From Methylotenera sp. (lineage in GTDB: Bacteria; Pseudomonadota; Gammaproteobacteria; Burkholderiales; Methylophilaceae): a stretch of DNA of 33,229 nt. This document shows, in pieces, positions 9,100-27,879 of this stretch. Position numbers and translations under genes: made by a program. Within the stretch, counting starts at the first letter, position 1. The number at the start of each line of letters is the position of its first letter. The notes under the pieces are model-generated. The model was given only the letters and a program-made list of their open reading frames with translations. It ran no database searches and had not been told where the DNA came from. The stretch spans positions 1 through 33,229 of the forward strand of contig NZ_JABFRA010000011.1 of NCBI RefSeq assembly GCF_013141425.1. The letters run 5' to 3'.

Positions 9100-9176
9100 G
9101 GTGATGTAGCTCAGCTGGTTAGAGCACAGGATTCATAATCCTGGGGTCGAGGGTTCAAGTCCCTCTTTCACCACCA
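9100..9176 (+). tRNA. tRNA-Met (anticodon CAT), host site of the integrated element
   Basis: A 77-nt cloverleaf. Its anticodon stem CAGGA/TCCTG has loop TTCATAA (anticodon CAT), its T arm is GAGGG-TTCAAGT-CCCTC, and CCA is encoded. Overall it resembles elongator tRNA-Met rather than tRNA-Ile(CAT). The acceptor GGTGATG against TTTCACC leaves a T-T mismatch at the sixth pair and a G-T at the seventh. That is unusual and may mark a 3' end replaced by the integrating element. Confidence 0.93.
9162..9176. repeat. Left attachment-site core in the tRNA-Met 3' end (attL)
   Basis: CCTCTTTCACCACCA at the end of the tRNA resembles CCTCTTTCCCACCA at 32469-32482, differing by one inserted base. P4-type integrases commonly recombine at tRNA 3' ends. 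Confidence 0.5.
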
Positions 9177-9351: not shown

Positions 9352-10596
9352 ATGGCACTTTCAGACACTTTAATTAAGGCCAATAAGCACAAAGATGATG
9401 ATGGAAAAATCAAAATACCTCCATATAAGCTCTACGATTCAGAAGGTTTATTTCTACAAGTTACCCCAACTGGCGGTAAGTGGTGGCGTTTAAAGTATCG
9501 TTTTGGAGGAAAAGAAAAATTACTATCTTTAGGCACATACCCTGAAGTATCACTAGCCGATGCGAGGGAAAGGCGAGCCTCTGCAAGAACGCTATTAGCA
9601 AAAGAACCACCGATAGACCCAAGTGAGAACCGTAAAAATGTTAAAGCTATCACAAGGTTAAATACAGAAAATAGTTTTGAACTGGTAGCGCGTGAGTGGT
9701 GGCAATCACATATGACTAATAAAGCAGAGAGCCATAAAGAAAAAGTAATAAGACGATTTGAGCTTTACTTATTCCCTTGGATTGGCAATAGGCCGATTAA
9801 CACACTTACCGCACCACAAGTATTAGAAGTCATTAAGCGTATTGAGAAACAGAATAAACTTGAAACTGCTCACCGCACATTACAAACGGCTGGACAGGTA
9901 TTTAGATATGCTGTGCAAACTGGCCGTGCTGTTCGTGATGTTACTGCTGATTTAAAAGGTGCATTACCAGCTACTGCGATTAAACACATGGCTGCATTTA
10001 CTGAACCGAAAGAAGTGGCAGAATTACTACGTGCATTTGATGGCTTCAACGGCACGTTTACAGTGCAATGCGCTCTCAAGCTATCACCTCTAGTGTTTGT
10101 TCGCCCTAGTGAACTCAGGCAAGCAAAGTGGAAAGATATAAATCTTGATACAGGTGAATGGCGTTATTTAGTGAGTAAAACTAAAACAGACCATTTAGTA
10201 CCCCTATCCACTCAAGCCATAGATATCCTAAAAACTATTCATCCTCTATCAGGTCAGGGTGAATATGTTTTTCAAGGAGGACATTCTCCACGAAGGCCAA
10301 TGAGTGAAGCTGCAGTTAATGCTGCTTTAAAACGCATGGGATATGACACCAAAAATGAAATTACTGGGCATGGATTTAGGGCTATGGCACGAACTATGAT
10401 ACATGAAAGATTAGGCTATGATGTTCCTGTAATTGAACATCAACTTGCTCACAGTGTTGCTGATAATTTAGGTACTGCTTATAACCGAACTAAATTTATT
10501 GATCAGCGTAAAGAAATGATGCAGGTTTGGGCTGATTATTTAGACGAACTTAAAGTAGGTGCAAAGGTAATCCCAATTAATAACAAGTTAGCTTGA
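9352..10596 (+). CDS. P4-type tyrosine integrase
   Basis: Site-specific recombinase that would integrate and excise the element at tRNA-Met. The 414 residues have the N-terminal arm-binding DUF4102-type domain (about 1-90, with GGKWWRLKYRFGGKEKLLSLGTYPEVSL), a SAM-like core-binding domain (about 105-200) and the catalytic domain with Arg251 (VRPSEL), His340-x-x-Arg343 (HGFR), His367 (QLAH) and the nucleophile Tyr377 (AYNRT). All catalytic residues are present, so it should be active. It starts 175 bases from the tRNA, reading into the element. A closely related but truncated integrase lies at 32668. Confidence 0.96.
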   Translation: MALSDTLIKANKHKDDDGKIKIPPYKLYDSEGLFLQVTPTGGKWWRLKYRFGGKEKLLSLGTYPEVSLADARERRASARTLLAKEPPIDPSENRKNVKAITRLNTENSFELVAREWWQSHMTNKAESHKEKVIRRFELYLFPWIGNRPINTLTAPQVLEVIKRIEKQNKLETAHRTLQTAGQVFRYAVQTGRAVRDVTADLKGALPATAIKHMAAFTEPKEVAELLRAFDGFNGTFTVQCALKLSPLVFVRPSELRQAKWKDINLDTGEWRYLVSKTKTDHLVPLSTQAIDILKTIHPLSGQGEYVFQGGHSPRRPMSEAAVNAALKRMGYDTKNEITGHGFRAMARTMIHERLGYDVPVIEHQLAHSVADNLGTAYNRTKFIDQRKEMMQVWADYLDELKVGAKVIPINNKLA

Positions 10597-16404: not shown

Positions 16405-16707
16405 ATGTCAGATGTTTGTATTCATGAAAATGGCCAGATAGTTCTATTCTCTCTAGTGGGATGCAGTACTGGAAAGAATGATCCTAACGATAAAATGTAT
16501 GGCTTATGGGAACTAGCTAACGGTAAAAAAGAAATGGTGTGTTGGAAGTATGACAATATGATTCTTGTCTATACACTTGATAAAAGAGTTCTTGCATTCA
16601 CACCAGATCAGCAAGATACCGAATGCCCGCTCCATCCTAGTAGTGAACCTTATTCCACTCCAGAAACCAAGTCACCTGCAGAGTATCATGAGCCACTAAA
16701 TGGATGA
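16405..16707 (+). CDS. Cysteine-containing small protein, paralog A next to Sir2
   Basis: A 100-residue protein starting MSDVCIHENGQIVLFSLVGCS. It shares with the 78-residue protein at 17543 the pattern MSD-x-CIH...GQIV-x-F-x-L-x-GCS...MYG-x-WE...CW-K/R-Y...VYT-x-D...F-x-PD...TEC. The four cysteines are conserved in both copies and could bind metal; the C-terminal 25 residues are Pro/Ser-rich and unique to this copy. The Sir2 gene starts inside its last codons (8-base overlap), implying coupled expression. No known family; a partner, substrate or regulator of the deacetylase is inference. Confidence 0.7.
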   Translation: MSDVCIHENGQIVLFSLVGCSTGKNDPNDKMYGLWELANGKKEMVCWKYDNMILVYTLDKRVLAFTPDQQDTECPLHPSSEPYSTPETKSPAEYHEPLNG

Positions 16708-17521
16708 TGATTTTAGAGATTTAATCAGAGATATTACTGATATTGCAGATGGGCTACTTATCACGGCTGGTGCTGGTATGGGTGTTGACTCTGGCTTGCC
16801 TGACTTTCGTGGTGAACATGGATTTTGGAATGCCTATCCTGCACTGAGAAGCTCTGGAGTCAATTTTTATGACATTGCTAGTCCAGATGCTTTCATCACC
16901 AATCCAAAGCAAGCATGGGGCTTCTACGGTCACCGCTTGAACCTATATCGCAAGACTATACCGAATGCTGGATTTGCAATTCTTAGAGCGCTTGCACACC
17001 AAATGCCAAATGGCGCATTCATTTTCACCAGCAATGTGGATGGTCAATTTCAGAAGGCAAGTTTTTCTGAATCACAGATTGTTGAATGTCATGGATCAAT
17101 CCATCACCTGCAATGCATTAATGGCTGTTTAAATGAAGTTTCTAGTGCCAAGGACTTTCAACCTGAAACAGATGATACAGAGTGCTTACTATTGTCACCG
17201 TTACCACGCTGCATTTGCTGTGGTGAAGTTACGCGTCCTAACATTTTAATGTTCAATGACTGGAAATGGATTAGCAAACGCATGGAGTCACAGAAGGCGC
17301 AATTTGACGAATGGCTAGGTAAAGTAACACGCTTACTTATTATTGAGATTGGCGCAGGTACTAGCATCCCTACTGTCCGTAAATTCAGTGAGAGTCATGC
17401 TGGGTATTTGATACGCATAAACCCAGATGAGCCTGAAATACCTAGTCATGTGAAAGGTATCAGCTTGCCTATGACTGGATTGGCAGGGCTTCAATTGCTT
17501 TCAGATTCCATCACTGATTAA
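16700..17521 (+). CDS. Sir2-family NAD-dependent protein deacylase
   Basis: Sirtuins remove acyl groups from lysines using NAD and release nicotinamide. The 273 residues show the Rossmann NAD motif GAGMGVDSGLPDFRG (about 24-38), TSNVDGQF (about 110-117, the T-x-N-x-D motif), catalytic His131 in CHGS and a zinc site Cys139/Cys143 and Cys171/Cys174. Unlike Sir2 domains of defence proteins such as Thoeris ThsA, it is a single-domain enzyme with an intact deacylase histidine and zinc site, so protein deacylation is more likely than NAD depletion. It is bracketed by two paralogous small genes. Confidence 0.93.
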   Translation: MDDDFRDLIRDITDIADGLLITAGAGMGVDSGLPDFRGEHGFWNAYPALRSSGVNFYDIASPDAFITNPKQAWGFYGHRLNLYRKTIPNAGFAILRALAHQMPNGAFIFTSNVDGQFQKASFSESQIVECHGSIHHLQCINGCLNEVSSAKDFQPETDDTECLLLSPLPRCICCGEVTRPNILMFNDWKWISKRMESQKAQFDEWLGKVTRLLIIEIGAGTSIPTVRKFSESHAGYLIRINPDEPEIPSHVKGISLPMTGLAGLQLLSDSITD

Positions 17522-17542
17522 TAAATAAGAAAGCACAACAAA

Positions 17543-17779
17543 ATGAGCGATACCTGCATACATACTGATGGTGGACAGATAGTATTTTTTCCATTGATGG
17601 GCTGTAGTCAGGACGATAATAAAGAGAACAATAACCAGATGTATGGTGTCTGGGAGAATGGTAAAGGTTTAAGAGAAAAGATATGCTGGCGATATGAGCG
17701 ATTTAACTTTGTTTACACAAAAGATAGATCTTACTCATTTAACCCAGATGAAATTTCAACTGAATGTGACCCTAAATAG
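17543..17779 (+). CDS. Cysteine-containing small protein, paralog B next to Sir2
   Basis: A 78-residue paralog of the 16405 protein: MSDTCIHTDGGQIVFFPLMGCS, NNQMYGVWENGKG, ICWRYERFNFVYTKDR, FNPDEISTEC. It keeps the four cysteines but lacks the C-terminal extension. It starts 21 bases after the Sir2 stop. Two diverged copies either side of one enzyme point to duplication within the cassette and a role tied to Sir2. Not recognised as a known family. Confidence 0.7.
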   Translation: MSDTCIHTDGGQIVFFPLMGCSQDDNKENNNQMYGVWENGKGLREKICWRYERFNFVYTKDRSYSFNPDEISTECDPK

Positions 17780-17832
17780 TTTAACTCCATCAAACTCAAC
17801 ATCTAATGTTTCTATTAAAGCTATATTAAATC

Positions 17833-18255
17833 ATGATCATTAAAACTTCTGTTGTGTACACAATCTCCCTTGATACAGGCACAGACACATGGGCATGGAT
17901 GAAAGATGCAAATGATGAGAGTAGGTATCTAGGAAGCGCAGTTGGCGAATCTGATGGTTGGTATGGGCAGCATGAGATTAGTCATGAGCTAATGCAGAAT
18001 GCAAGTATGTGGCTATTAGGATTTCTACGATCAAAACTTGACGATGAGGCCAATGTAGATGGATTTGATTGGGATAGTCTTCATCGTTATGGAATAGAAC
18101 TAGCTAAACGGCTCAAAGCGGAAATTGGTGAAACTGCCGATGTTAGATACGTAAAAGCTAGTAAAGATCCTTCATACAACCGAGAGGAAGGATTTGAGAT
18201 CACATATGAAGGAGTAGTGTTGCCAATAAGCCGATTACAATGGTGTCCAGTTTGA
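17833..18255 (+). CDS. Uncharacterised protein in the Sir2 cassette
   Basis: A 140-residue soluble acidic protein, not recognised. Segments YTISLDTGTDTWAWMKDAND, SDGWYGQHEISHELMQNASMWLLGFLRSKLDDE and FDWDSLHRYGIELAKRLKAEIGE suggest an alpha/beta fold. Tryptophans are frequent. It starts 53 bases after paralog B, and the next gene starts 7 bases after its stop, so 17833-20127 forms a tight three-gene unit. No signal peptide, membrane segment or cysteine cluster. Confidence 0.65.
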   Translation: MIIKTSVVYTISLDTGTDTWAWMKDANDESRYLGSAVGESDGWYGQHEISHELMQNASMWLLGFLRSKLDDEANVDGFDWDSLHRYGIELAKRLKAEIGETADVRYVKASKDPSYNREEGFEITYEGVVLPISRLQWCPV

Positions 18256-18262
18256 TTAGTTT

Positions 18263-18817
18263 ATGACATTCAACGAAATAGAATGGCGCAAGAAAGTAAG
18301 GCTGGCGAAGTCAGGGGATGAGTTAAGAAATCTGCTAATGGAGATTCCAGACGATTACAACGGTGCTGCTGCTAAAGGTTCTTTGCAAGCTGAATCACCT
18401 CAATGTGGATCAAGACTGACTTTCAATCCAACTCTGCCAGATGGGGCGACGAATTCGGAATTTACATTTGATGCTGAGGAGGTTGAAATGGCTGCTATGA
18501 AGGCTTTCACTTCAATTCCAAACACAACAAATTTGAAACTAATTGCAAATTGGGCCTCACATCGTAATGCCACAATCACTACTCCAACGCCCTTACCTGA
18601 AGGCACTGATTGCTTTGAACTGATTTTAGCGGATCTAATTGACTTAGGTAATGGGCAAGTATGGTGTTATGAGTGTGATAAAGTTTATTCTGTGGCAGAA
18701 ATGCAACTTACGCACCAAACTCGTGGTAGTTGGGGTTGCAAAGATTATCTATGTCCTTCTATGCACTTTCTTGCATCCCTAAAATGGATACATTTCATGC
18801 GGCATAGAAACTTCTAA
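18263..18817 (+). CDS. Uncharacterised protein with C-terminal zinc-finger-like motif
   Basis: A 184-residue protein, not recognised as a whole. Near the C terminus WCYECDKVYSVAEM is followed by GSWGCKDYLCPSMHF, giving two CxxC-like pairs that could bind zinc. The middle holds a helical segment TNLKLIANWASHRNATI. It starts 7 bases after the previous stop and its TAA overlaps the next ATG by one base, so the three genes are almost certainly translated together. A nucleic-acid or protein adaptor is possible; function unknown. Confidence 0.65.
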   Translation: MTFNEIEWRKKVRLAKSGDELRNLLMEIPDDYNGAAAKGSLQAESPQCGSRLTFNPTLPDGATNSEFTFDAEEVEMAAMKAFTSIPNTTNLKLIANWASHRNATITTPTPLPEGTDCFELILADLIDLGNGQVWCYECDKVYSVAEMQLTHQTRGSWGCKDYLCPSMHFLASLKWIHFMRHRNF

Positions 18818-20127
18818 TGACTTTCCAAAGCATATTTGACGATCACCCAATCACAACTTATTCCAATCTGTTGGAATGGTTAATATCTATTCCTATGAGA
18901 GTAGCACCATCAGCACAATGGATTGCAACGATTAAAGCAGCAAAGGGAATACGGACAGAGGAAATTGAAAGATCTGAGTTATTAGACTATCTTTTTGAAT
19001 ATACCGATGATCAGAAGGTAACAAAGGAGCATTTGTTGGAAATCGCAGAATATGGATTATCTACATGCAGAATCACTGTCCAGACCGAACGCTCATCAAC
19101 GTATCGTCCAACATTACAATGCAAATCCTTTCCACCAGAAAATATACCGAAAAAAGTGAGTAGTAGTTTTGCTGATGGCTCTATTATTGGCTGCATGAAA
19201 CTACCTTCTTTTGCATATAAGGTAATTGGGCTTAGATATACGGATTTATTCGGTGGTGGTGAGGGTTGGTATATTTTTGATGAGCGTTGGCGTCAAATAA
19301 AACCATATAGGTGCTACAAAAACTCTTTAGATTCTATTGATGCAGTCTATTCTGCCATAGTGAATAAATTCAGTAGATTTACCAGCCATGTTTCTTTTAA
19401 TCACTATGAATGGTATGCGTTGCTTGGCAAAAGAAAAAACTACAAGGAGTGGATAGTAAGCATTCCAAGTTGGGTAGCTACATTTGAAAGCACACATTTT
19501 GTTGTAGAAAATACCGTCTTACATCTCCGCACGTCAGAATGGAAAGACAGTGATGGTCTGCCACTGTTACTGATAGATGAAATTCAGAGCGATTGGCATG
19601 CGACTGGGAGAGTCAATGGCTACAGTGACATTGATGAACTATTAGATAACGATGAGAGTGATGCCGTACCTGATGCGCCATTTATTAAAGAATGGCACGA
19701 GTTAGGTATAAAAATTGCAATTTGGGTTGCACTTAAATCTGGTCATTCACGAATCGCCTTTACCAAAGGTGACGTTCACAGTGAGCGTTATGGAGAAGAT
19801 CTTGAGGGATTCCATTTGCTTTATGACCAAGCTATTCCCAAGTCGCTGGCGAAACTGGTTTCTAAGTTTCAATGTCATTTAGGGTCGGCGATTATTACGA
19901 TTAGTAAGCCAAACCAAAGTATTCGGCATAGAAGTGGTACAGGCTGGGAGTTACTGGCCTCAGGTAAGAATGAGAAATCTAAAGTTGTAAAAAACGAAGT
20001 GGTTGCCATGCGCTATTTAGTGAGTCGTGGACAAAAAAAGCAAGAAGAAGTGCGTATGTTTGAAATATCGCCTGCATTGGCAGATGCAGTGAAAAGTAAA
20101 GGCATACCATTATTTGGTTGGTGGTAA
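18817..20127 (+). CDS. Free-standing protein with a domain typical of phage/ICE large polyvalent proteins
   Basis: A 436-residue protein. The C-terminal half matches a domain I know as an internal part of large polyvalent proteins of phages and conjugative elements: LLLIDEIQSDWHATGRVNGY (about 250-269), PDAPFIKEWHELGIKIAIWVA (about 285-305), a RIAFTKGDVHSERYG strand, LYDQAIPKSLAKLV (about 335-348) and the closing EISPALADAVKSKGIPLFG. There this block is usually fused to helicase, methyltransferase or peptidase domains; here it is alone behind an unfamiliar N-terminal region of about 120 residues. Its activity is not established. Overlap with the preceding gene and proximity to Sir2 suggest joint action. 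Confidence 0.7.
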   Translation: MTFQSIFDDHPITTYSNLLEWLISIPMRVAPSAQWIATIKAAKGIRTEEIERSELLDYLFEYTDDQKVTKEHLLEIAEYGLSTCRITVQTERSSTYRPTLQCKSFPPENIPKKVSSSFADGSIIGCMKLPSFAYKVIGLRYTDLFGGGEGWYIFDERWRQIKPYRCYKNSLDSIDAVYSAIVNKFSRFTSHVSFNHYEWYALLGKRKNYKEWIVSIPSWVATFESTHFVVENTVLHLRTSEWKDSDGLPLLLIDEIQSDWHATGRVNGYSDIDELLDNDESDAVPDAPFIKEWHELGIKIAIWVALKSGHSRIAFTKGDVHSERYGEDLEGFHLLYDQAIPKSLAKLVSKFQCHLGSAIITISKPNQSIRHRSGTGWELLASGKNEKSKVVKNEVVAMRYLVSRGQKKQEEVRMFEISPALADAVKSKGIPLFGWW

Positions 20128-20134
20128 ATATTAA

Positions 20135-20299
20135 GCTCAATATGAAAAACTCACCCCACAGGAACGACGTGCCTTCAGAGCCAGTGATTCCGTTTCTATC
20201 GGTTTGCGGAGGATTGGGAACTCCTTACTCGGCAAAGGGGTTGCTAGAGATTTCAAAGAGCAAGGAACAACAAGCCTTATCGGTAAACATATGCAATAG
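20135..20299 (+). pseudogene. Possible gene remnant without a start codon
   Basis: The frame from 20135 reads AQYEKLTPQERRAFRASDSV and continues to a stop at 20297-20299 (54 codons). It looks protein-like (basic, helical, L-T-P-Q-E-R-R start) but has no ATG, GTG or TTG near its beginning. The competing frame with an ATG (20118 or 20142) is less protein-like. It may be the tail of a lost gene. Confidence 0.3.
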
Positions 20300-20326: not shown

Positions 20327-21601
20327 CTAAGAAACTGTCGGAACATCCTGCCAGCGAGTCGTATAGCTAGGGCTTTTATTCCCCTGCTTCATTTTCCAAG
20401 GTCGCTTAAAGCCCTCACTAGCTAACTTGATGGATTCTTTCCCCATCTTACGATTGATATTGTCCATGGCAGTCATTAATGCTGTTGATTTTGGGGAAGT
20501 TTGTATCTGAGTAAATAAATCAGTTTGCACACCCTGTTCTTGAACAATCTCCCCCAGCATCACTCCTGCCTTAGCGTAGCTATAATTGGGCCTGTATATC
20601 TGTTTTAAGCCCCATAGGGCGACATTAACGAGTTGCCTAGTGTCATTGGTGGGACTAGACAACGGAATGGTCAGGCCGTTGCTATAGAAGGGATCATCTG
20701 GCTTGAATGGGCTAGTTCTGATATACACATAAACCGACCCAGCAAATGATTGCTGATTGCGTAGTTTCTCTGCAGCACGGCTCATGTATAGCGTGATTGA
20801 TTCAGCAAGGCTATTGTAATCGCGCACTGGGTAACCGAAACTTCTTGAACTAATGATCTGCTTCTTGGCTGGGCTGATTTCTTCTAGTTCTATACATACA
20901 GTACCATTCAATTCACGTATAGTCTTTTCCATAACTACGCTAAACTGTTGACGTAATCTTTCTGGATTGGCGCGTTTTAAATCTAATACCGTATTGAAGC
21001 CTAACGCCTGAAGCTTGGGTGCAAGTTTTCGGCCTACACCCCATATCTCTCCCACTTCTACTTGACCTAGTAAATCATCTAAATCTTTAGGAGGCATAGT
21101 ATTGAAGTTGCATACGCTATTAAATACTGGTCGTTTTTTAGCACAATGATTGGCTAGTTTTGAAAGAGTTTTAGTTGAACCGATGCCAACGCAGACAGGT
21201 AAGCCAGTCCATTTCAGAATACGCTTACGCATATCTTGACCATACTGAATTAAGTCACGTGATTGAAAGCCTGTTAGGTCTAAGAACGACTCATCAATTG
21301 AATAGATTTCTTGATCTGGACTATATTGCCTGAGAATGCTCATGACACGATTGCTCATATCTGCATACAAGGCATAGTTGCTAGATAAACCGATGATGCC
21401 ATGCTGCTTAGCCAAGTCTTTGAACTTAAACCATGGCGCACCCATACCGACACCAAGTGCTTTGACTTCATTACTACGTGCTACGGCACAACCATCATTA
21501 TTAGATAGTACTACAACAGGCTTGCCGATAAGCTTAGGGTTAAAAACACGCTCACATGAAACGTAGAAGTTGTTTACATCTATGAGTGCAATGCTACGCA
21601 T
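20327..21601 (-). CDS. umuC: UmuC-like Y-family DNA polymerase (polymerase V catalytic subunit)
   Basis: UmuC copies past DNA lesions with cleaved UmuD. The 424 residues start MRSIALIDVNNFYVSCERVF; metal-binding Asp8 and the Asp103-Glu104 pair in IYSIDESFLD are intact. The VCVGIGSTKTLSKLANHCAKK palm and GVGRKLAPKLQALG helix-hairpin-helix follow, and the C-terminal DUF4113-type tail (about 380-424, IQTSPKSTALMTAMDNINRK) is present. Length is typical. It starts 11 bases after umuD and is the last gene of a four-gene minus-strand operon. It converges with the Sir2 cassette. Confidence 0.95.
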   Translation of the reverse strand: MRSIALIDVNNFYVSCERVFNPKLIGKPVVVLSNNDGCAVARSNEVKALGVGMGAPWFKFKDLAKQHGIIGLSSNYALYADMSNRVMSILRQYSPDQEIYSIDESFLDLTGFQSRDLIQYGQDMRKRILKWTGLPVCVGIGSTKTLSKLANHCAKKRPVFNSVCNFNTMPPKDLDDLLGQVEVGEIWGVGRKLAPKLQALGFNTVLDLKRANPERLRQQFSVVMEKTIRELNGTVCIELEEISPAKKQIISSRSFGYPVRDYNSLAESITLYMSRAAEKLRNQQSFAGSVYVYIRTSPFKPDDPFYSNGLTIPLSSPTNDTRQLVNVALWGLKQIYRPNYSYAKAGVMLGEIVQEQGVQTDLFTQIQTSPKSTALMTAMDNINRKMGKESIKLASEGFKRPWKMKQGNKSPSYTTRWQDVPTVS

Positions 21602-21612
21602 GATGGAACTGC

Positions 21613-22266
21613 TTACTTAAAACGTCTAAATGAACCTGTTACTACGCCCCATATCTCAAAATTCATACCTTCTTTAATTTCAATTGGAGAATATGCGCCT
21701 GTGGAGTTAGCTGGCAATAGCTTTGGACTTCCGTCTTTATTGCGACTAAGCGTTTTTATGGTGAACTCACCATCTATCACAGCTAGAACTATGTCACCTA
21801 TAGAGGCTTGTTTAGATCGGTCAACTACAGCCTTGTCATTCGGCAGCAAGCCTACATCCATCATTGAGTAGCCTTGAATAGTGACAAAGAAAGTTGCATC
21901 CATTTGATCTATTAAAAAATCATTGGGATTTAGACGCTTTTCTACATGCTCTTCTGCTGGGCTAGGGAAACCTGCTGATACTTTGGAACTATATAACAGC
22001 AGATTAATTGGAGGAGTGTTAAGTTTAGGCCATTCAAAATCTATTACAGCATCAATATCAACTGTTAACTTTTTGCGTTGATAGGCAATTAGAAAGTCTT
22101 TGATAACAGTTGTTTGACTAGCTGGAACTCGGAGTACAGTGGTAGGTTCACGGAACTTACCAGTGCCATTTCTTCTACCAGCACCTTGGCGGATACCACC
22201 ACGCTTGCTATTTAAATATTGATCATTATCATTCATGTGATTATTGTAACAATAATCATAGTGCAT
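21613..22266 (-). CDS. umuD: UmuD-like S24 autoprotease (polymerase V accessory subunit)
   Basis: UmuD cleaves itself on RecA filaments and the product joins UmuC. With the start at 22266 the protein has 217 residues. The S24 domain has the cleavage site SAGFPSPAEEHVE (Ala98-Gly99), nucleophile Ser134 (GYSMMD) and Lys171 (FTIKTL), with the same 37-residue Ser-Lys spacing as Escherichia coli UmuD. The N-terminal 80 residues, absent from E. coli UmuD, contain GGIRQGAGRRNGTGKF and TTVLRVP, a basic extension found in element-borne versions and perhaps DNA-binding. An AGGTAG site favours 22266; an ATG at 22236 is the alternative. It begins 5 bases after the SRAP gene. Confidence 0.93.
   Translation of the reverse strand: MHYDYCYNNHMNDNDQYLNSKRGGIRQGAGRRNGTGKFREPTTVLRVPASQTTVIKDFLIAYQRKKLTVDIDAVIDFEWPKLNTPPINLLLYSSKVSAGFPSPAEEHVEKRLNPNDFLIDQMDATFFVTIQGYSMMDVGLLPNDKAVVDRSKQASIGDIVLAVIDGEFTIKTLSRNKDGSPKLLPANSTGAYSPIEIKEGMNFEIWGVVTGSFRRFK
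22239..22257. promoter_or_regulatory. Perfect 9-1-9 palindrome at the 5' end of umuD
   Basis: GATTATTGTAACAATAATC is an exact inverted repeat with a single central base. It lies within the first codons from the 22266 start, or two bases before the alternative ATG at 22236. The length and symmetry suit a repressor operator. Confidence 0.5.
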
Positions 22267-22271
22267 TGATA

Positions 22272-22910
22272 CTACCTAGGTGCTTCTTCACTCATTAGAA
22301 AATCACTAGGGGCTAAATTCAACATTGATCTGGCATCATCATGATTAGCGTTTAACCAAGGTAGGTACTGGCTGTCATTTAAAACAACCACTGATCGCTT
22401 TTCATCTTCTGGTTTATGAAAATGCTTCATTACTTCATGGCCATTAGCATTAATTGTAAGCATTGAAAACGAGAAAATGATCTCACCCGTTTCTTTGTCT
22501 ATAAAACGTTCCCAGATTGATGCAATAACAGTTGGCTCAGAATCGGCTCTTTTAATTCGCCACCTAACTGCTTTTCCTGATTCCCAATTAGGCTCATAAA
22601 AACTTTCTGCTAACACCAAACCAAATCGGCGCTCTTTCCATGCGCTACGATAGCTAGGTTTTTCATGAACAGTTTCTGATCTAGCATTATAGGTTTTTAG
22701 TCCAAACTTCTTTTTATCTGTTGCCCAATGTGGAACAAGACCAAATTGAGCTAACTCACAACGAGGCTGTCCATTTTCAAGATAGATAAATGGGGCAGGA
22801 TAAGTCGGATAAGCTTCAGAACGCCACTCTGCGTTTGGCAAATTACAGTTAAAGTGCTGCTTTACCCAGTTTGCGTGGTGATTCTTAATTGGTTGGAAAT
22901 TACTGCACAT
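22272..22910 (-). CDS. SRAP/HMCES-family abasic-site processing protein (YedK-like)
   Basis: These proteins shield abasic sites in single-stranded DNA by forming a covalent thiazolidine link through Cys2. The 212 residues start MCSNF, leaving Cys2 exposed after Met removal. Asn75 in YNARSE, Glu106 in ESFYEP and a C-terminal active-site histidine in HFHKPEDEKRS (about 163-173) match the catalytic set of YedK, as do FGLVPHW and SYRSAWKERR. Length is normal. It sits 5 bases ahead of umuD and 27 bases after the alarmone hydrolase, tying abasic-site protection to translesion synthesis in one operon. No canonical LexA box (CTGT-N8-ACAG) is seen directly upstream. Confidence 0.93.
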   Translation of the reverse strand: MCSNFQPIKNHHANWVKQHFNCNLPNAEWRSEAYPTYPAPFIYLENGQPRCELAQFGLVPHWATDKKKFGLKTYNARSETVHEKPSYRSAWKERRFGLVLAESFYEPNWESGKAVRWRIKRADSEPTVIASIWERFIDKETGEIIFSFSMLTINANGHEVMKHFHKPEDEKRSVVVLNDSQYLPWLNANHDDARSMLNLAPSDFLMSEEAPR

Positions 22911-22937
22911 ATACTTTTTTCTGTAACTTGTTTGCTA

Positions 22938-23480
22938 CTAATAAGGTCTGCTTGCGTAGACATCATCAAACGTTATACTAAGCTTTTTGTTAGCATCCCT
23001 CACTTGATCAACTACTTGCTTAGCCCAATCAAAGTAATCTTGCTTCCTCTGCACTGACCAATATGCAGGTGGGCTATTCAAAATGTCACGAAGATTTGAA
23101 ATCTTATCTGCAAGCTTAACCAGCTTTGCTCTCTTACTTGCATGACGAGCATGTTCTATCTGCTGAAGTTTTCGTTCGGCTTTAGGTAGTGACTTATCAT
23201 CAGAAACCTCTAAAACGATTTTGGTAATACTTTTTCCAAAGAGAGCAACTAATTCCTCTGCAGTAGTTTCAGTATCTTCAATCGTATCGTGTAGCAACGC
23301 TCCGCAAATCACTTTATGGTCTGTGATACCACCTTCAACACAGAGTACTTTGGCTAGGGCAATTGGATGGTTAATATAGGGTGATGCTTCAGCATCTTTC
23401 CTTCTTTGATCTTTGTGCTTTCTTGAAGCAAACTCTAATGCATTAATGATTAGTGCTAGATCATTATTTTCTTTAGCCAT
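22938..23480 (-). CDS. Small alarmone hydrolase (MESH1-like HD phosphohydrolase)
   Basis: Single-domain homologue of the hydrolase half of RelA/SpoT that would remove pyrophosphate from (p)ppGpp. The 180 residues contain the HD set: His38 in YINHPI, His64-Asp65 in LLHDTIEDT (with Glu68/Asp69) and Asp125 in KLADKISNLRD, with RKHKDQRRKD at the start. No synthetase, TGS or ACT domains follow. A good ribosome binding site (GAGGAA) precedes the ATG. It is the first gene of the minus-strand operon that continues with SRAP, umuD and umuC, and is divergent from hsdM across 179 bases that must hold both promoters. Confidence 0.92.
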   Translation of the reverse strand: MAKENNDLALIINALEFASRKHKDQRRKDAEASPYINHPIALAKVLCVEGGITDHKVICGALLHDTIEDTETTAEELVALFGKSITKIVLEVSDDKSLPKAERKLQQIEHARHASKRAKLVKLADKISNLRDILNSPPAYWSVQRKQDYFDWAKQVVDQVRDANKKLSITFDDVYASRPY

Positions 23481-23659
23481 GTTATTTCCTCAATAATTTA
23501 GTTACTGGCTAGAAGCCTACGGTAATCTTTACGATATGAAAAGCAAAATACCTAAAATAACCAAATAGAAAGTCTGGAATGGAACAATAAATACATTCAG
23601 TTTCTTTAAACTTGTCACTTTGTATTATCATATCTTCACAAAATAACTTAGAAAAAATT

Positions 23660-25267
23660 ATGTCAGAAGAACAACGCCGTCAACTCCAACAACAACTCTG
23701 GAATATCGCAAATACATTACGTGGCAAGATGGGTGCAGATGAGTTTAGGGATTACATACTTGGCTTCATCTTCTATAAATATCTCTCAGAAAAGATCCAA
23801 CGTTTTGCTGATGGTGAACTGGCCCAAGAGAACCTCAAGTTTGCTGAAATCAATGACACCACAGCCGAAGGTCAAGCTTACATAGATGCTTTAGAAGATG
23901 CTGCATTGAACGAACTTGGCTACTTCCTAAAGCCATCTGAACTGTTTCATGCCATTGCAATGAAGGGAAGTAACCAATTAGATTCTAATAATGAAGGTGC
24001 AAGTCATAATTTCATATTAGGTGATCTGACTAAAATCTTAAAGAACATTGAGCAAAGTACTCTTGGAACGGATAGTGCTGATGACTTCGTAAATCTATTT
24101 GAAGATCTAGATTTAACTTCATCCAAGCTTGGTAAAACTGAAAAAGAGAAGAATGACTTAGTTGCTAAGGTGCTAGTGCATTTGGACAAGATTGATTTCA
24201 ACCTAAGTGATGCTACTGCTGATGTACTAGGTGATGCTTATGAATATTTGATTGGTGAGTTTGCTAGTGGTGCAGGTAAAAAAGCTGGTGAGTTCTACAC
24301 ACCACAACCAGTATCAACTTTACTTGCCAAGATAGTAACCGCAAACAACAAGAACCTCAAAAGCGTATATGACCCAACCTGTGGCAGTGGATCATTATTA
24401 CTACGTGTAAAACGTGAAGCGACCAAGGTTGATAAGATTTACGGTCAGGAACTCAACCGAACCACCTACAACTTAGCACGTATGAATATGATTCTGCATG
24501 ACGTGCATTATGCAGACTTTGACATCAAGCAGGAAGACACGCTAGAGCGCCCACAGCATCGTGATTTACGTTTTGATGCCATAGTAGCCAATCCACCATT
24601 TTCAGCCCAGTGGAGTGCCAGCCAGCTTCATATGAACGATGATAGATTTAGTGTGTATGGCAAACTTGCACCAAGCAGTAAAGCAGATATGGCATTTGTT
24701 CAGCATATGGTCTACCACTTGGCTGAAGAAGGTACGATGGCTGTAGTATTGCCACATGGTGTGCTGTTTCGTGGTGGGGCAGAAGGACATATTCGCACAT
24801 ACCTTATTGAACAATTGAATTGCTTAGATGCTGTGATTGGCTTGCCTTCCAATATGTTCTACGGTGCGGCTATACCAACGACTGTATTAGTATTCAAGAA
24901 ATGTCGTAAAAATCCTGACAACATTTTATTCATAGATGCCAGCCAGCACTTTGATAAGGTTAAAACTACAAATGTAATGCGCCCTGAGCATATTCAAAAG
25001 ATTGTAGATACCTACAAAGCAAGGACGAATGAAGAGAAATTCAGCCATATTGCTAGCATTGAAAGCATTAAAGCCAATGATTACAACCTCAATATTCCAA
25101 GGTATGTTGATACCTTTGAGGCAGAAGATATGATTGATTTGGGTGCAATATCAGCACAGTTGATTGAGCTTGATAAAGCCAGCCAAGCTACAGATGCAAC
25201 GATTGCGGCATTCTGTAAAGAGTTAGGCATTGAGCCACCATTTGCTTTACAAGGTCAAGCAGTATGA
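23660..25267 (+). CDS. hsdM: Type I restriction-modification system, methyltransferase subunit
   Basis: HsdM methylates adenine at the target chosen by HsdS. From ATG 23660 the protein has 535 residues; an in-frame ATG 16 codons upstream (23612) adds only residues unlike the family and is rejected. The N-terminal helical domain starts SEEQRRQLQQQLWNIANTLR with MGADEFRDYILGFIFYKYLS. The catalytic domain has SAM motif I DPTCGSGSLLL (about 238-248) and the adenine methyltransferase NPPF motif at 311-314. Its stop overlaps the hsdS start (ATGA). It opens an hsdM-hsdS-membrane protein-hsdR operon. Confidence 0.96.
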   Translation: MSEEQRRQLQQQLWNIANTLRGKMGADEFRDYILGFIFYKYLSEKIQRFADGELAQENLKFAEINDTTAEGQAYIDALEDAALNELGYFLKPSELFHAIAMKGSNQLDSNNEGASHNFILGDLTKILKNIEQSTLGTDSADDFVNLFEDLDLTSSKLGKTEKEKNDLVAKVLVHLDKIDFNLSDATADVLGDAYEYLIGEFASGAGKKAGEFYTPQPVSTLLAKIVTANNKNLKSVYDPTCGSGSLLLRVKREATKVDKIYGQELNRTTYNLARMNMILHDVHYADFDIKQEDTLERPQHRDLRFDAIVANPPFSAQWSASQLHMNDDRFSVYGKLAPSSKADMAFVQHMVYHLAEEGTMAVVLPHGVLFRGGAEGHIRTYLIEQLNCLDAVIGLPSNMFYGAAIPTTVLVFKKCRKNPDNILFIDASQHFDKVKTTNVMRPEHIQKIVDTYKARTNEEKFSHIASIESIKANDYNLNIPRYVDTFEAEDMIDLGAISAQLIELDKASQATDATIAAFCKELGIEPPFALQGQAV

Positions 25268-26487
25268 ATTTGCCAGCTTTAAGATTTAAAGAATTCAATG
25301 AACCATGGATTGATGAAACAATTGGGAAATTAATTCATGAGTTTAGATTAGGTGGAGATTACTCTAATAGCGAGACAGAAACGCCATTTCCATTAATTAA
25401 AATGGGGAATTTAGACAGAGGCACAATAAAGTTAAATAAAATTGAGTTTATTGAAGAATCCGAGGTGGCTGACCCAAAAGATAAGATAGTTTTTGGTGAT
25501 TTATTTTTTAACACTAGAAATACCTTAGATTTAGTGGGTAAGGTAGCGATATGGAAAAATGAATTACCTTGTGCATATTACAATTCAAATTTAATGCTCA
25601 TGAAATTCAGTAATAATTTCTTCATGAACTTCAGGTTAAATTCACCTGTGGCTGTAAAAAAGTTAAGGGCGATAGCAACAGGGACAACAAGTGTTGCGGC
25701 GATTTACAATAAAGACCTATTTCAAATTAAATTAGAAACACCTTCACTCACAGAACAAACCAAAATCGCCAACTTCCTCACGGCTGTTGATGAAAAAATC
25801 ACCCAACTAACCCAAAAACACGACCTATTAAACCAATACAAAAATGGCGTGATGCAACAGATTTTTAGTCAAGAACTGCGCTTTAAAGATGATGATGGGC
25901 AGGATTTTCCTGAATGGCAAGAGAGTTGCATAGGAGAAGTAGCGAGCTTCATTAAAGATGGAACACATGGTACACACCAAGATACAGTGGATGGTGAATA
26001 CTTATTATTAAGTGCAAAAAATATAAAAGATGGCGGAATTTATTATGATGAATCTGACAGAAAAATATCTAAACTAGAGTTTCAGTCTATTTATAAAAAC
26101 TACAAACTACATGATGGAGACGTTTTGTTATCTGTAGTTGGAACAATTGGTCGTGTAGCAATTTATTCTTCTGAATTTAAGAATGTAGCATTTCAACGAA
26201 GTGTCGCATTTTTTAGGTTTAATAATCAAAATAGTCAGTTCATAGCTCAACTATTTACCGCTAAGCAATTTCAAAATGACTTAATAACTAATCAAGTAGT
26301 TTCGGCTCAAGCTGGAATTTACTTAGGTGATTTATCTAAAATAAAAGTAAAGTTGCCTTGCTTAACCGAACAAACCAAAATCGCCAACCTCCTCACCACC
26401 ATTGACGAAAAAATCACTGCCACCAAAACCCAAGCCCAAGCCGTGAAGCAATACAAACATGGCTTATTACAGCAGATGTTTGTTTAA
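25264..26487 (+). CDS. hsdS: Type I restriction-modification system, specificity subunit
   Basis: HsdS carries two target recognition domains that read the two halves of the recognition site. The 407 residues form two repeats: TRD1 (about 1-155) and TRD2 (about 215-360), each followed by a conserved helical spacer, LTEQTKIANFLTAVDEKITQL (from 162) and LTEQTKIANLLTTIDEKITAT (from 367), and a YKNGVMQQIF or YKHGLLQQMF end. The spacer DNA is nearly identical between copies and visibly richer in C than the AT-rich TRDs. The sequence recognised cannot be predicted by eye. Confidence 0.94.
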   Translation: MNLPALRFKEFNEPWIDETIGKLIHEFRLGGDYSNSETETPFPLIKMGNLDRGTIKLNKIEFIEESEVADPKDKIVFGDLFFNTRNTLDLVGKVAIWKNELPCAYYNSNLMLMKFSNNFFMNFRLNSPVAVKKLRAIATGTTSVAAIYNKDLFQIKLETPSLTEQTKIANFLTAVDEKITQLTQKHDLLNQYKNGVMQQIFSQELRFKDDDGQDFPEWQESCIGEVASFIKDGTHGTHQDTVDGEYLLLSAKNIKDGGIYYDESDRKISKLEFQSIYKNYKLHDGDVLLSVVGTIGRVAIYSSEFKNVAFQRSVAFFRFNNQNSQFIAQLFTAKQFQNDLITNQVVSAQAGIYLGDLSKIKVKLPCLTEQTKIANLLTTIDEKITATKTQAQAVKQYKHGLLQQMFV

Positions 26488-26500
26488 AAAAGGACTCAAT

Positions 26501-27874
26501 ATGATTGAAAAGCTATGGGAGTTGTTAACAACTATTACCCCTGAATCACAAAATAACGTCATTAATAAATGTATTGAATTTGGTTTCAATACAACAAGTA
26601 GAGGAGTTGTAAGCCTTGAGGAGTCTTATATTAACTTGAATGCATCAGCTTTACTGTTGAAAGATTTAATAGAAAAGAAAAAACTTATACAGCTACCCAT
26701 TACAATTCAAAAGGTCTTGATTGACGCATTACAAAATATTATCAATGCTCAGACTGGTATAGTGGCTGGTGGGGATGCTGTTGAAAATCTTTCTACCTAT
26801 ATAGAAAGTTTAAATACTCAAATATGGCAGTATGGGCTACACAATCTTTCTGATGAAGTTTTAGGTTATCAAACTAAAATGAATCAGATTAAAAGCTTAG
26901 AGCTAGAAGTTGGGAGATTAAGAAAAGAGTTAGTCGCTGGTATAAAGTCTATAGAAATTTTGGATGCTTTAATTAAACAAAGCTCAGTCACTAGTAACGT
27001 AATTACAACCTACAATGCTGAAGCTGAAGCTTTACTTATTCAAATAAAACAAAACGTTCAAGAAGTTACTACTAACGCCCAAAGTGTAGCAGCTTATTTC
27101 ACACAAGTTCAGCAAAACGATACTGCAATCGCACAGATTAGGGCAAACGCTAATCAATCAAGTGCCGAAATTGTTGTCTTGGAAAGCAAAGCTACAGAGT
27201 TTTTTGGAGAGGTATCTAATTTCACAAAGCGTGTTGATGTTTTAACAAAGAAAGCTGAAGATTCAGTTGAGTTAAATACTAAAGAAACTACAACTCTTAA
27301 AGAAAAATTGGTGAAACTAGAAGTTCAAATTAAAGATCAACTTGAAAAAGCTACAGGTTATTCATTATTCCATTCATTCCAGACAAGGCAAGGTTTGATG
27401 GTTAAGTCCAAAAATTTTTGGTTATTAGTTCTGAGTGTATTGCTATTAATTGCCGTTGGTCTTGGATGCTGGTTGGTAAAATCAATGAGTGGCATGTCTT
27501 TAGATTCAATCGGAGTAGCTTTTTATCTTAAACTTTCGCTCACCATACCATTACTTTTTGCAATTTCATTTAGCACGATTCAATATTCTAGGGAGCGAAG
27601 ACTTGAAGAGGAGTATGCCTTTAAATCAAACATTTCTATTTCTTTAATACCCTATCAAGAGCTAGTTGAAAAACTAGTTGATGAAGATGATCAGGAGCAA
27701 AGAAAAGAGTACGCAACTTTTATAATTTCAACTATAAATAAGATTTTCACTTCACCTACAAATGAGATATTTAAAGATAAGAAATCATCAAAGGGTATGA
27801 TTGATGAAAATTCTTTAAAGATAATTAGCCAAATTGGTGATGCATTTTCTAAATTCAAACCTCCATCTGCCTAA
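26501..27874 (+). CDS. Coiled-coil membrane protein embedded in the type I R-M operon
   Basis: From ATG 26501 (ribosome binding site AAGGA) the protein has 457 residues; an ATG 14 codons upstream lies inside hsdS and is rejected. The N-terminal part is helical, residues about 115-290 form long coiled coils, and two membrane helices follow (about 306-326 and 339-357, separated by a short loop). A soluble C-terminal region contains YSRERRLEEEYAFKSNISISLIPYQELVEKL, reminiscent of the end of other bacterial coiled-coil membrane proteins. It starts 13 bases after hsdS and ends 5 bases before hsdR. It is not a standard R-M subunit; a membrane-linked sensor or accessory defence protein is inference. 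Confidence 0.75.
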   Translation: MIEKLWELLTTITPESQNNVINKCIEFGFNTTSRGVVSLEESYINLNASALLLKDLIEKKKLIQLPITIQKVLIDALQNIINAQTGIVAGGDAVENLSTYIESLNTQIWQYGLHNLSDEVLGYQTKMNQIKSLELEVGRLRKELVAGIKSIEILDALIKQSSVTSNVITTYNAEAEALLIQIKQNVQEVTTNAQSVAAYFTQVQQNDTAIAQIRANANQSSAEIVVLESKATEFFGEVSNFTKRVDVLTKKAEDSVELNTKETTTLKEKLVKLEVQIKDQLEKATGYSLFHSFQTRQGLMVKSKNFWLLVLSVLLLIAVGLGCWLVKSMSGMSLDSIGVAFYLKLSLTIPLLFAISFSTIQYSRERRLEEEYAFKSNISISLIPYQELVEKLVDEDDQEQRKEYATFIISTINKIFTSPTNEIFKDKKSSKGMIDENSLKIISQIGDAFSKFKPPSA

Positions 27875-27879
27875 TACCA

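Follow-up and report, generated by a model that had tools for sequence, protein, structure and literature searches.

A Methylotenera Sir2 cassette is probably one version of a reusable Sir2-P436 module with a putative conflict function

What does a sirtuin gene do when none of the five genes packed around it reaches the Pfam cut-off? The question is raised by a cassette at positions 16405-20127 of a 33,229-nucleotide stretch of DNA from Methylotenera sp. (contig NZ_JABFRA010000011.1), the whole of which is called the window. The cassette is a tight unit of six open reading frames (ORFs), all on the + strand, which encode in order small protein A, Sir2, small protein B, P140, P184, and P436. 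The gaps between them are -8, 21, 53, 7, and -1 nt, and the gene preceding A lies 274 nt away. The original prediction, made from the letters alone, placed the six genes and the overlap of A with the Sir2 start correctly, while its description of the trailing genes as almost overlapping holds for the last three but not for B and P140. Comparison with relatives shows that the conserved core is Sir2 and P436, together with P184, P140, and the upstream P227, and not A-Sir2-B. The cassette probably belongs to a reusable Sir2-P436 conflict module, whose function is putative. Tentatively, it may be a version of such a modular system residing in integrative and defence islands of Methylophilaceae-like bacteria and acting by acylation and deacylation.

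The 37 gene models of the window were compared with the loci of relatives, followed by profile searches; loci are numbered with L and genomes with G. ORFs in the relatives' loci were called simply (longest first, at most 25% overlap), which may cause mis-calls in GC-rich loci. Among 187 genomes of the family, the Sir2 subfamily is found in seven (E 1e-12), G007 having a C-terminal fragment only, and P436 in nine (E 1e-3), of which six are host-type, with only a 56-aa end left in G031, and three are short matches, one of these within a 1141-aa frame. Five genomes (G000, G032, G038, G016, and G007) have both, always on one strand, 67-1296 nt apart and with at most three genes between them. The hypergeometric p for the co-occurrence is 7e-8 for the six host-type copies and 1.4e-6 for all nine, or 1.5e-6 and 2.1e-5, respectively, when the window's own genome is left out, though these values overstate independence since six of the seven Sir2 genomes are from one genus. 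P184 follows Sir2 in L029, L032, and L215, as does P140 in L032; upstream of Sir2, P227 is present in L029, L030, and L215. The family genomes with Sir2 and without P436 are G024, which has Sir2 fused to the domain ND (see below), P184, and another protein of 432 aa, and G226, which has WYL, a half-length ND, and Sir2. The 432-aa protein of G024 (L215, 5178-6476), which is unrelated to P436 and has no Pfam match, stands in the place of P436 and may represent an effector swap.

Beyond the family, P436 is directly followed by Sir2 in L053, and Sir2 lies about 6 kb from P436 in L054. In a sample of 370 genomes of the class, Sir2 is found in eight (E 1e-50) and P436 in seven (E 1e-15). A scan of the genome collection for P436 gave 33 loci, comprising 20 of host type (full or near full length, some split or cut) and 13 of phage type (giant ORFs or short ones). 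Addition of the window and a copy on a Caballeronia plasmid makes a host-type set of 22, in the examined stretches of which profiles detect Sir2 in seven (the window, L039, L040 as a fragment, L041, L042, L053, and L054), ND in seven, either in ten, SLOG in five, and HD in five; nine of the 21 non-window stretches are shorter than 14 kb. Among named genomes, the P436 of the window has its four closest loci in three Methylotenera metagenome-assembled genomes (L039, L040, and L042) and a betaproteobacterial one (L041), which suggests a Methylophilaceae-like host. L044 and L046 have P436 proteins with a single difference in 560 residues. The features are listed in Table 1.

Table 1. Genes of the cassette and the upstream module gene, in window coordinates
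Feature	Position	Strand	Description
P227	15065..15748	+	227 aa; module gene upstream of the cassette; homologues precede ND-Sir2 in relatives
Small protein A	16405..16707	+	100 aa; four Cys; 8-nt overlap with the Sir2 start
Sir2	16700..17521	+	273 aa; class III-like sirtuin (Y76-x-x-R79, H131, Cys4)
Small protein B	17543..17779	+	78 aa; paralog of A
P140	17833..18255	+	140 aa; in L044-L047 the P140 domain and a cpYpsA SLOG domain form one ORF
P184	18263..18817	+	184 aa; Cys cluster; homologues after Sir2 in L029, L032, and L215
P436	18817..20127	+	436 aa; host version of a domain from phage polyvalent proteins; GNAT-like C-terminal domain (residues 205-436)

The Sir2 of the window is a single-domain protein, as first described, but its relatives in L039, L041, and L042 (the loci also numbered L030, L029, and L032, respectively) and in L215 carry a fused domain of about 340 aa, designated ND, which in the first three is N-terminal and gives proteins of 609-633 aa. 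ND is fused at the C terminus of Sir2 in L185 and is the adjacent gene upstream of Sir2 in L191, so that the two are linked by fusion in both orders or by adjacency. In the class sample, ND (E 1e-8) is found in two of the 370 genomes, both with a cassette-type Sir2; since L185 and L191 were first found via Sir2 and themselves contribute to the ND profile, all that this search establishes is the lack of an ND apart from Sir2 in the sample. In L044, L046, L047, and L053, ND is instead encoded on its own, directly ahead of P436; only L053 of these has Sir2 in the examined stretch. A profile search finds no ND in the window, the L053 copy as a query finds none in plasmids, and none is confirmed in viral contigs. 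The ND protein of L046 matches nothing in Pfam, PADLOC, PHROGs, or NCBIfam at the limits used. Upstream of P436 or ND, a further conserved protein of 550-660 aa (C3) is observed in L061 (7100-8761), L043, L044, L046, and L049; searches of Pfam, PADLOC, and NCBIfam give nothing for the L061 copy.

The positions of A and B should be noted. The bracketing of Sir2 by these paralogs is true of the window and is seen in no other of the 187 family genomes. A and B share 50% identity across 76 aligned columns (E 1e-25), and their cysteines (5, 20, 46, and 74 in A; 5, 21, 48, and 75 in B) are invariant in all four members found. These members come from three of the 187 family genomes (two in the window, one each in G027 and G056), and only the own genome is positive among 225 genomes of the order. 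In G027 a Sir2 remnant (36 residues, 69%, E 1e-8) comes directly after the small protein, whereas the G056 copy, with a start that by eye resembles a signal peptide, has no Sir2 match within 15 kb; three of the four known copies thus adjoin Sir2 or its remnant. No viral match is confirmed for A or B, no credible match is found among PDB sequences, and a plasmid search with B as a query gives no match. With such a narrow distribution and a copy that has no Sir2 in view, A and B cannot be kept as the core. The proposal of a candidate conflict module is thus borne out in part: it is supported for Sir2 and P436 (with P184 and P140), which recur, in some loci beside restriction or BREX genes, and not for A and B, which may replace ND in the window. 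The co-occurrence check suggested at first has a mixed outcome, since Sir2 and P436 go together in the family but, outside the own genome, never in the class sample.

Sir2 matches Pfam SIR2 at 2.8e-19, and its best relatives among PDB sequences are Sir2Af1 (1.8e-17) and SIRT5 (7.6e-16). The NAD motif (GAG..D...DFRG), N112 and D114, the catalytic H131, and the zinc site (C139, C143, C171, and C174) are all present, in agreement with the intact motifs reported at first. Y76 and R79 align with the Y..R of Sir2Af1; R79 is invariant in all eight alignment rows, and Y76 is variable (Phe in L013). In SIRT5, Tyr102 and Arg105 form the Y-x-x-R acyl-specificity motif, as given in a passage of PMC3446968. 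The protein thus has the catalytic His, Asn-x-Asp, NAD motif, and Y-x-x-R of class III sirtuins, and its residues predict a competent NAD+-dependent deacylase of this class. It resembles SIRT5, CobB, and Sir2Af1 in the catalytic His, Asn/Asp, Cys4 zinc site, and YxxR, but differs from them in belonging to a subfamily of its own with ND or A/B as partners, the members of which are 31-53% identical to the window protein (alignment A1). It is the one Sir2-family match in its genome. In a tree of 34 Sir2 proteins, it falls without a fixed position within an open group of 19 (support 96/93), which includes three Sir2s of viral contigs (L152-L154). Among the Sir2s linked to P436, the ND-fused trio (100/100) and L053, within a group from plasmids and viral contigs (95/96), are clearly apart, and L054 is placed elsewhere with lower support (93/93). 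The tree is partly unsure because of the long branches of L011, L013, and L184.

The whole-protein model of P436 (alignment A5, 19 sequences) has a predicted local distance difference test score (pLDDT) of 78.5. In Foldseek searches it gives no PDB match at E 1e-3 and 20 BFVD matches at E 1e-3 or better (up to 2.4e-18), which are proteins of 763-1479 aa, those with names being from uncultured Caudovirales. The C-terminal domain was modelled from alignment A6, which consists of the window sequence and 59 others picked from 78 non-redundant candidates; the model has a pLDDT of 91.7 and a predicted template-modelling score of 0.87. The best 50 of its 591 Foldseek rows against the PDB (E 10) are 31 of acetyltransferase or GNAT type, 16 of ICL2/Rv1916, and three others. 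The GNAT-type rows include SSAT as well as Eis2, AtaT, and GmvT, the last three of which we take to be GNATs. Residues E51, Q53, S54, D55, and W56 of the domain are invariant in all 60 rows and lie where strand 45-53 meets helix 55-63, which, from GNAT topology, we assume to be the strand-helix junction at which GNATs bind the CoA pyrophosphate. The C-terminal domain of Mycobacterium tuberculosis ICL2 is described as GNAT-like and acetyl-CoA-binding in a passage of PMC6788997, and the ICL2 rows presumably match this domain, judging from a row that covers residues 233-398 of Rv1916. These observations suggest that the C-terminal domain of P436 is likely GNAT-like and that P436, as modelled, may be an acyl-CoA-binding protein of this kind.

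No Pfam model exceeds its cut-off over this domain in any of the nine proteins scanned (the window copy, one other host-type, and seven phage-type proteins). Its homology to large phage ORFs bears out the earlier recognition of a phage polyvalent-protein domain. Compared with the polyvalent proteins of phages and conjugative elements, as portrayed in part of PMC5512222, the domain is of the same kind as that in large phage ORFs, but P436 is a stand-alone gene of 436 aa in a bacterial operon and not a multidomain injected protein. A single ORF of a viral contig (L119, 8894-13843) has two copies of the domain together with ART-PolyVal.

How might such proteins work together? P436 would acylate a target or sense its acylation, and Sir2 would take the acyl group off again at the expense of NAD+, with A and B (or ND) as its specificity partners and P140 and P184 as accessory sensors. 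On this view, the module could serve as a switch based on acylation, or as a toxin, and its activity under phage attack would be governed by NAD+ and acyl-CoA. In the TacAT system, the sirtuin is not known to be encoded beside the GNAT, which is a small toxin of the canonical kind, and this distinguishes it from the cassette. The likeness, and a precedent, is that a GNAT-type enzyme is opposed by a sirtuin: in Salmonella, TacT is reported to acetylate its antitoxin and CobB to reverse this (PMC5449658).

Several points weigh against action by acylation and deacylation in a dedicated Sir2-P436 module. The linkage, which holds for five of the seven Sir2 genomes of the family, comes mostly from one genus, and in the class sample only the own genome has both genes, seven others having Sir2 and six others P436; two Burkholderiales contigs from a targeted scan do hold both. 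Of the class loci other than the own one, five of seven have Sir2 without a module partner detectable by profile, and all six with host-type P436 lack a Sir2 or ND match (one of them, L203, being a 5.3-kb contig); the neighbourhoods of these lone P436 copies look by eye like housekeeping genes. On the Caballeronia plasmid, Sir2 is split between two frames and about 87 kb away from P436, and the NAD motif of the Sir2 in L191 looks degenerate. Counts of nearby defence genes carry no control for chance nearness to random loci. As for the fold, the best Foldseek E value of the P436 domain against the PDB is 0.015, so none is at or below 1e-3, and no row shown has a template-modelling score by query above 0.34. 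Only about 11 distinct proteins supply the chains of the 47 GNAT and ICL2 rows, and a profile search of PDB sequences with P436 gives nothing credible. The acyl-CoA loop of classical GNATs is R/Q-x-x-G-x-G/A. P436 has QSDWHATGR there instead, and the absence of the classical loop makes catalysis by P436 doubtful, so that it could be a sensor only.

A bolder extension of the acylation and deacylation reading is rather doubtful: that the cassette exemplifies an undescribed type of conflict system. In it, a GNAT-like domain of phage polyvalent proteins, domesticated by bacteria, would write the mark or sense acyl-CoA, and a dedicated sirtuin paired with it would erase the mark with NAD+; both the partner of Sir2 (ND or A/B) and the effector (P436, or a different protein such as that of L215) would be interchangeable. 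Searches of open-licence PMC papers list none whose title or opening of the abstract pairs Sir2 in defence islands with a protein of polyvalent or GNAT-like type, which is weak evidence of novelty. If true, it would link the role of a common, unannotated domain of phage polyvalent proteins with that of small deacylase-type sirtuins in defence islands, and both questions could be tested with a handful of proteins.

An alternative that we consider plausible but doubtful is an ADP-ribose-handling host conflict module akin to ARG-centric systems, in which Sir2 would act on or make ADP-ribosyl adducts or O-acyl-ADP-ribose and variable partners (macrodomain, ADP-ribosylglycohydrolase, SLOG, HD or DSP phosphatases) would process the product under WYL control. 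In SirTM (class M) sirtuins, a macrodomain is the partner and the catalytic His is replaced; the cassette is not of this class, since H131 is present and no macrodomain match is found in the genes scanned. The evidence fits acylation-deacylation and ADP-ribose handling about equally, the former using parts present in the window and the latter parts seen in relatives. The two also share ground, since O-acyl-ADP-ribose, on which macrodomains act, is a product of certain sirtuins according to part of PMC9503650. On a Sphaerotilus plasmid (L192, 8491-18974), a run of WYL, AAA, Sir2, MavL macrodomain (PF24754, 4e-121), DSP phosphatase, MoxR, and VWA genes lies beside BREX-2. In L216, WYL is divergent from a half-length ND and Sir2; in L046, a cpYpsA SLOG shares one ORF with P140 (5.6e-56). 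HD_4 is near P436 in L045 and L061, in the latter with WYL, and ADP_ribosyl_GH is about 2 kb from P436 in L054. Such variable sets of WYL, HD or DSP phosphatases, vWA, and ADP-ribose hydrolases recall the published template (PMC9503650, section 3.8), which combines WYL and vWA with a phosphatase of HD or rhodanese type. However, each of these partners occurs in few loci only, and the template loci were selected without sirtuins; P436 and ND are not described in that section. Pfam scanning of 19 of the 37 gene models of the window gives no macrodomain, ARG, SLOG, WYL, or Nudix match, and the HD_4 gene of the window belongs to a UmuDC/SRAP block on the opposite strand. With a sirtuin present and neither ARG nor WYL found, the window does not qualify as an ARG-centric system proper.

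It is unlikely that Sir2 is an abortive-infection NADase like ThsA or DSR2, with A/B, P140, or P436 sensing phage and triggering NAD+ depletion. The occurrence of Sir2 with partners, some relatives being in defence islands, the ND fusions, which resemble a sensor-effector architecture, and the SLOG joined to P140 in relatives are consistent with this idea. On the other hand, the motifs typical of deacylases are preserved, its best relatives in the PDB are themselves deacylases, no PADLOC model matches Sir2, and the five partnerless Sir2 loci of the class sample are unexpected for a toxic NADase. None of the known Sir2 defence systems tested fits by architecture, as had been anticipated. Thoeris, in which Sir2 is fused to SLOG or a macrodomain and accompanied by a TIR gene, is rejected because the 273-aa Sir2 has no other Pfam domain and no TIR match is found in the cassette, the three upstream genes, or the further window genes scanned. 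DSR1 and DSR2 are large Sir2 proteins with a long C-terminal sensor, which a Sir2 of this size without a PADLOC match is not. SIR2-HerA (Nezha) and short pAgo-SIR2 are excluded by the lack of a HerA or Argonaute match in the six cassette and three upstream genes. All four kinds share with the cassette the Sir2 domain and the placement of some relatives in defence islands, but the Sir2 of the window is small and deacylase-like, and their partner domains are not found in the genes scanned.

Service to the integrative element itself, as early host takeover or counter-defence, seems still less probable. The apparent start of the island is a tRNA-Met (9100-9176) followed by a tyrosine integrase (9352-10596); no direct repeat of at least 18 nt involving the tRNA is found in 9000-33229, whose last position is the end of both window and contig. 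The P436 domain abounds in viral contigs (a tblastn scan gave 218 stretches, of which 80 were kept) and is kin to polyvalent proteins, and relatives of Sir2 are found on plasmids and viral contigs. In plasmids, a search with P140 gives no match, and a DNA-level search with the cassette finds a Sir2 fragment only. Chromosomal lone copies of P436 and modules neighbouring restriction or BREX genes speak for a role in the host, and no transfer or virion signal turned up, none having been specifically searched for.

That Sir2 and P436 form no functional unit and are island cargo gathered in one genus is very improbable. The class sample, with no genome besides the own one holding both, and the decayed copies in G007, G027, and G031 would suit it, but the recurrence in L053 and L054 outside the family, the bridge through ND, and the tight coding overlaps oppose it.

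Least probable of all is RNA-end repair, proposed for a phage sirtuin clade in a passage of PMC9503650 (section 3.7.3): Sir2 does match phrog_2162 (2e-42), but we reject this role as the main one since nine viral-contig Sir2s form a separate group (100/99) from the 19 of the window, the 19 window genes scanned have no ligase, PIN, 2H, or kinase match, and identity to the three annotated phage Sir2s found, whose membership in the published clade was not tested, is 24-31%.

The surroundings of the module vary. P227 matches no Pfam family. After the cassette, the window has a block on the - strand (20327-23480) of UmuC, S24 peptidase (UmuD-like), SRAP, and HD_4 (22938-23480), the first three of which are also present in L035 (G027) with 75-95% identity, and then type I restriction-modification genes (23612-30753, the first named by eye). 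Type III restriction-modification genes are near the module in L041 (by Pfam), with a matching gene pair in L042 (by BLAST cluster). BrxC/PglY is near it in L046 and a helicase with a type IIG-like methylase in L045. The Sphaerotilus plasmid has a Wadjet-like gene by annotation along with its BREX-2, and L216 has an SNF2-type helicase, dynamin, GmrSD, and DUF1156. In L039 and L040, the module is beside tRNA-Arg, tRNA-Ser, lysC, and alaS, the last two named by eye, and no restriction-modification genes are recognised by eye.

In L033 (G031), a 56-aa end of P436 (5032-5199), 96-98% identical to the window, lies beside an IS21-like transposase pair recognised by eye, and the module seems broken. 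The sequence after this remnant is 91% identical to that directly after P436 in the window (20128-20297, about 170 nt), and 129 nt of the same stretch are 73% identical to the sequence before the Sir2 remnant in L031/L040. This stretch, which is single copy in its own genome, could be a recombination or insertion site.

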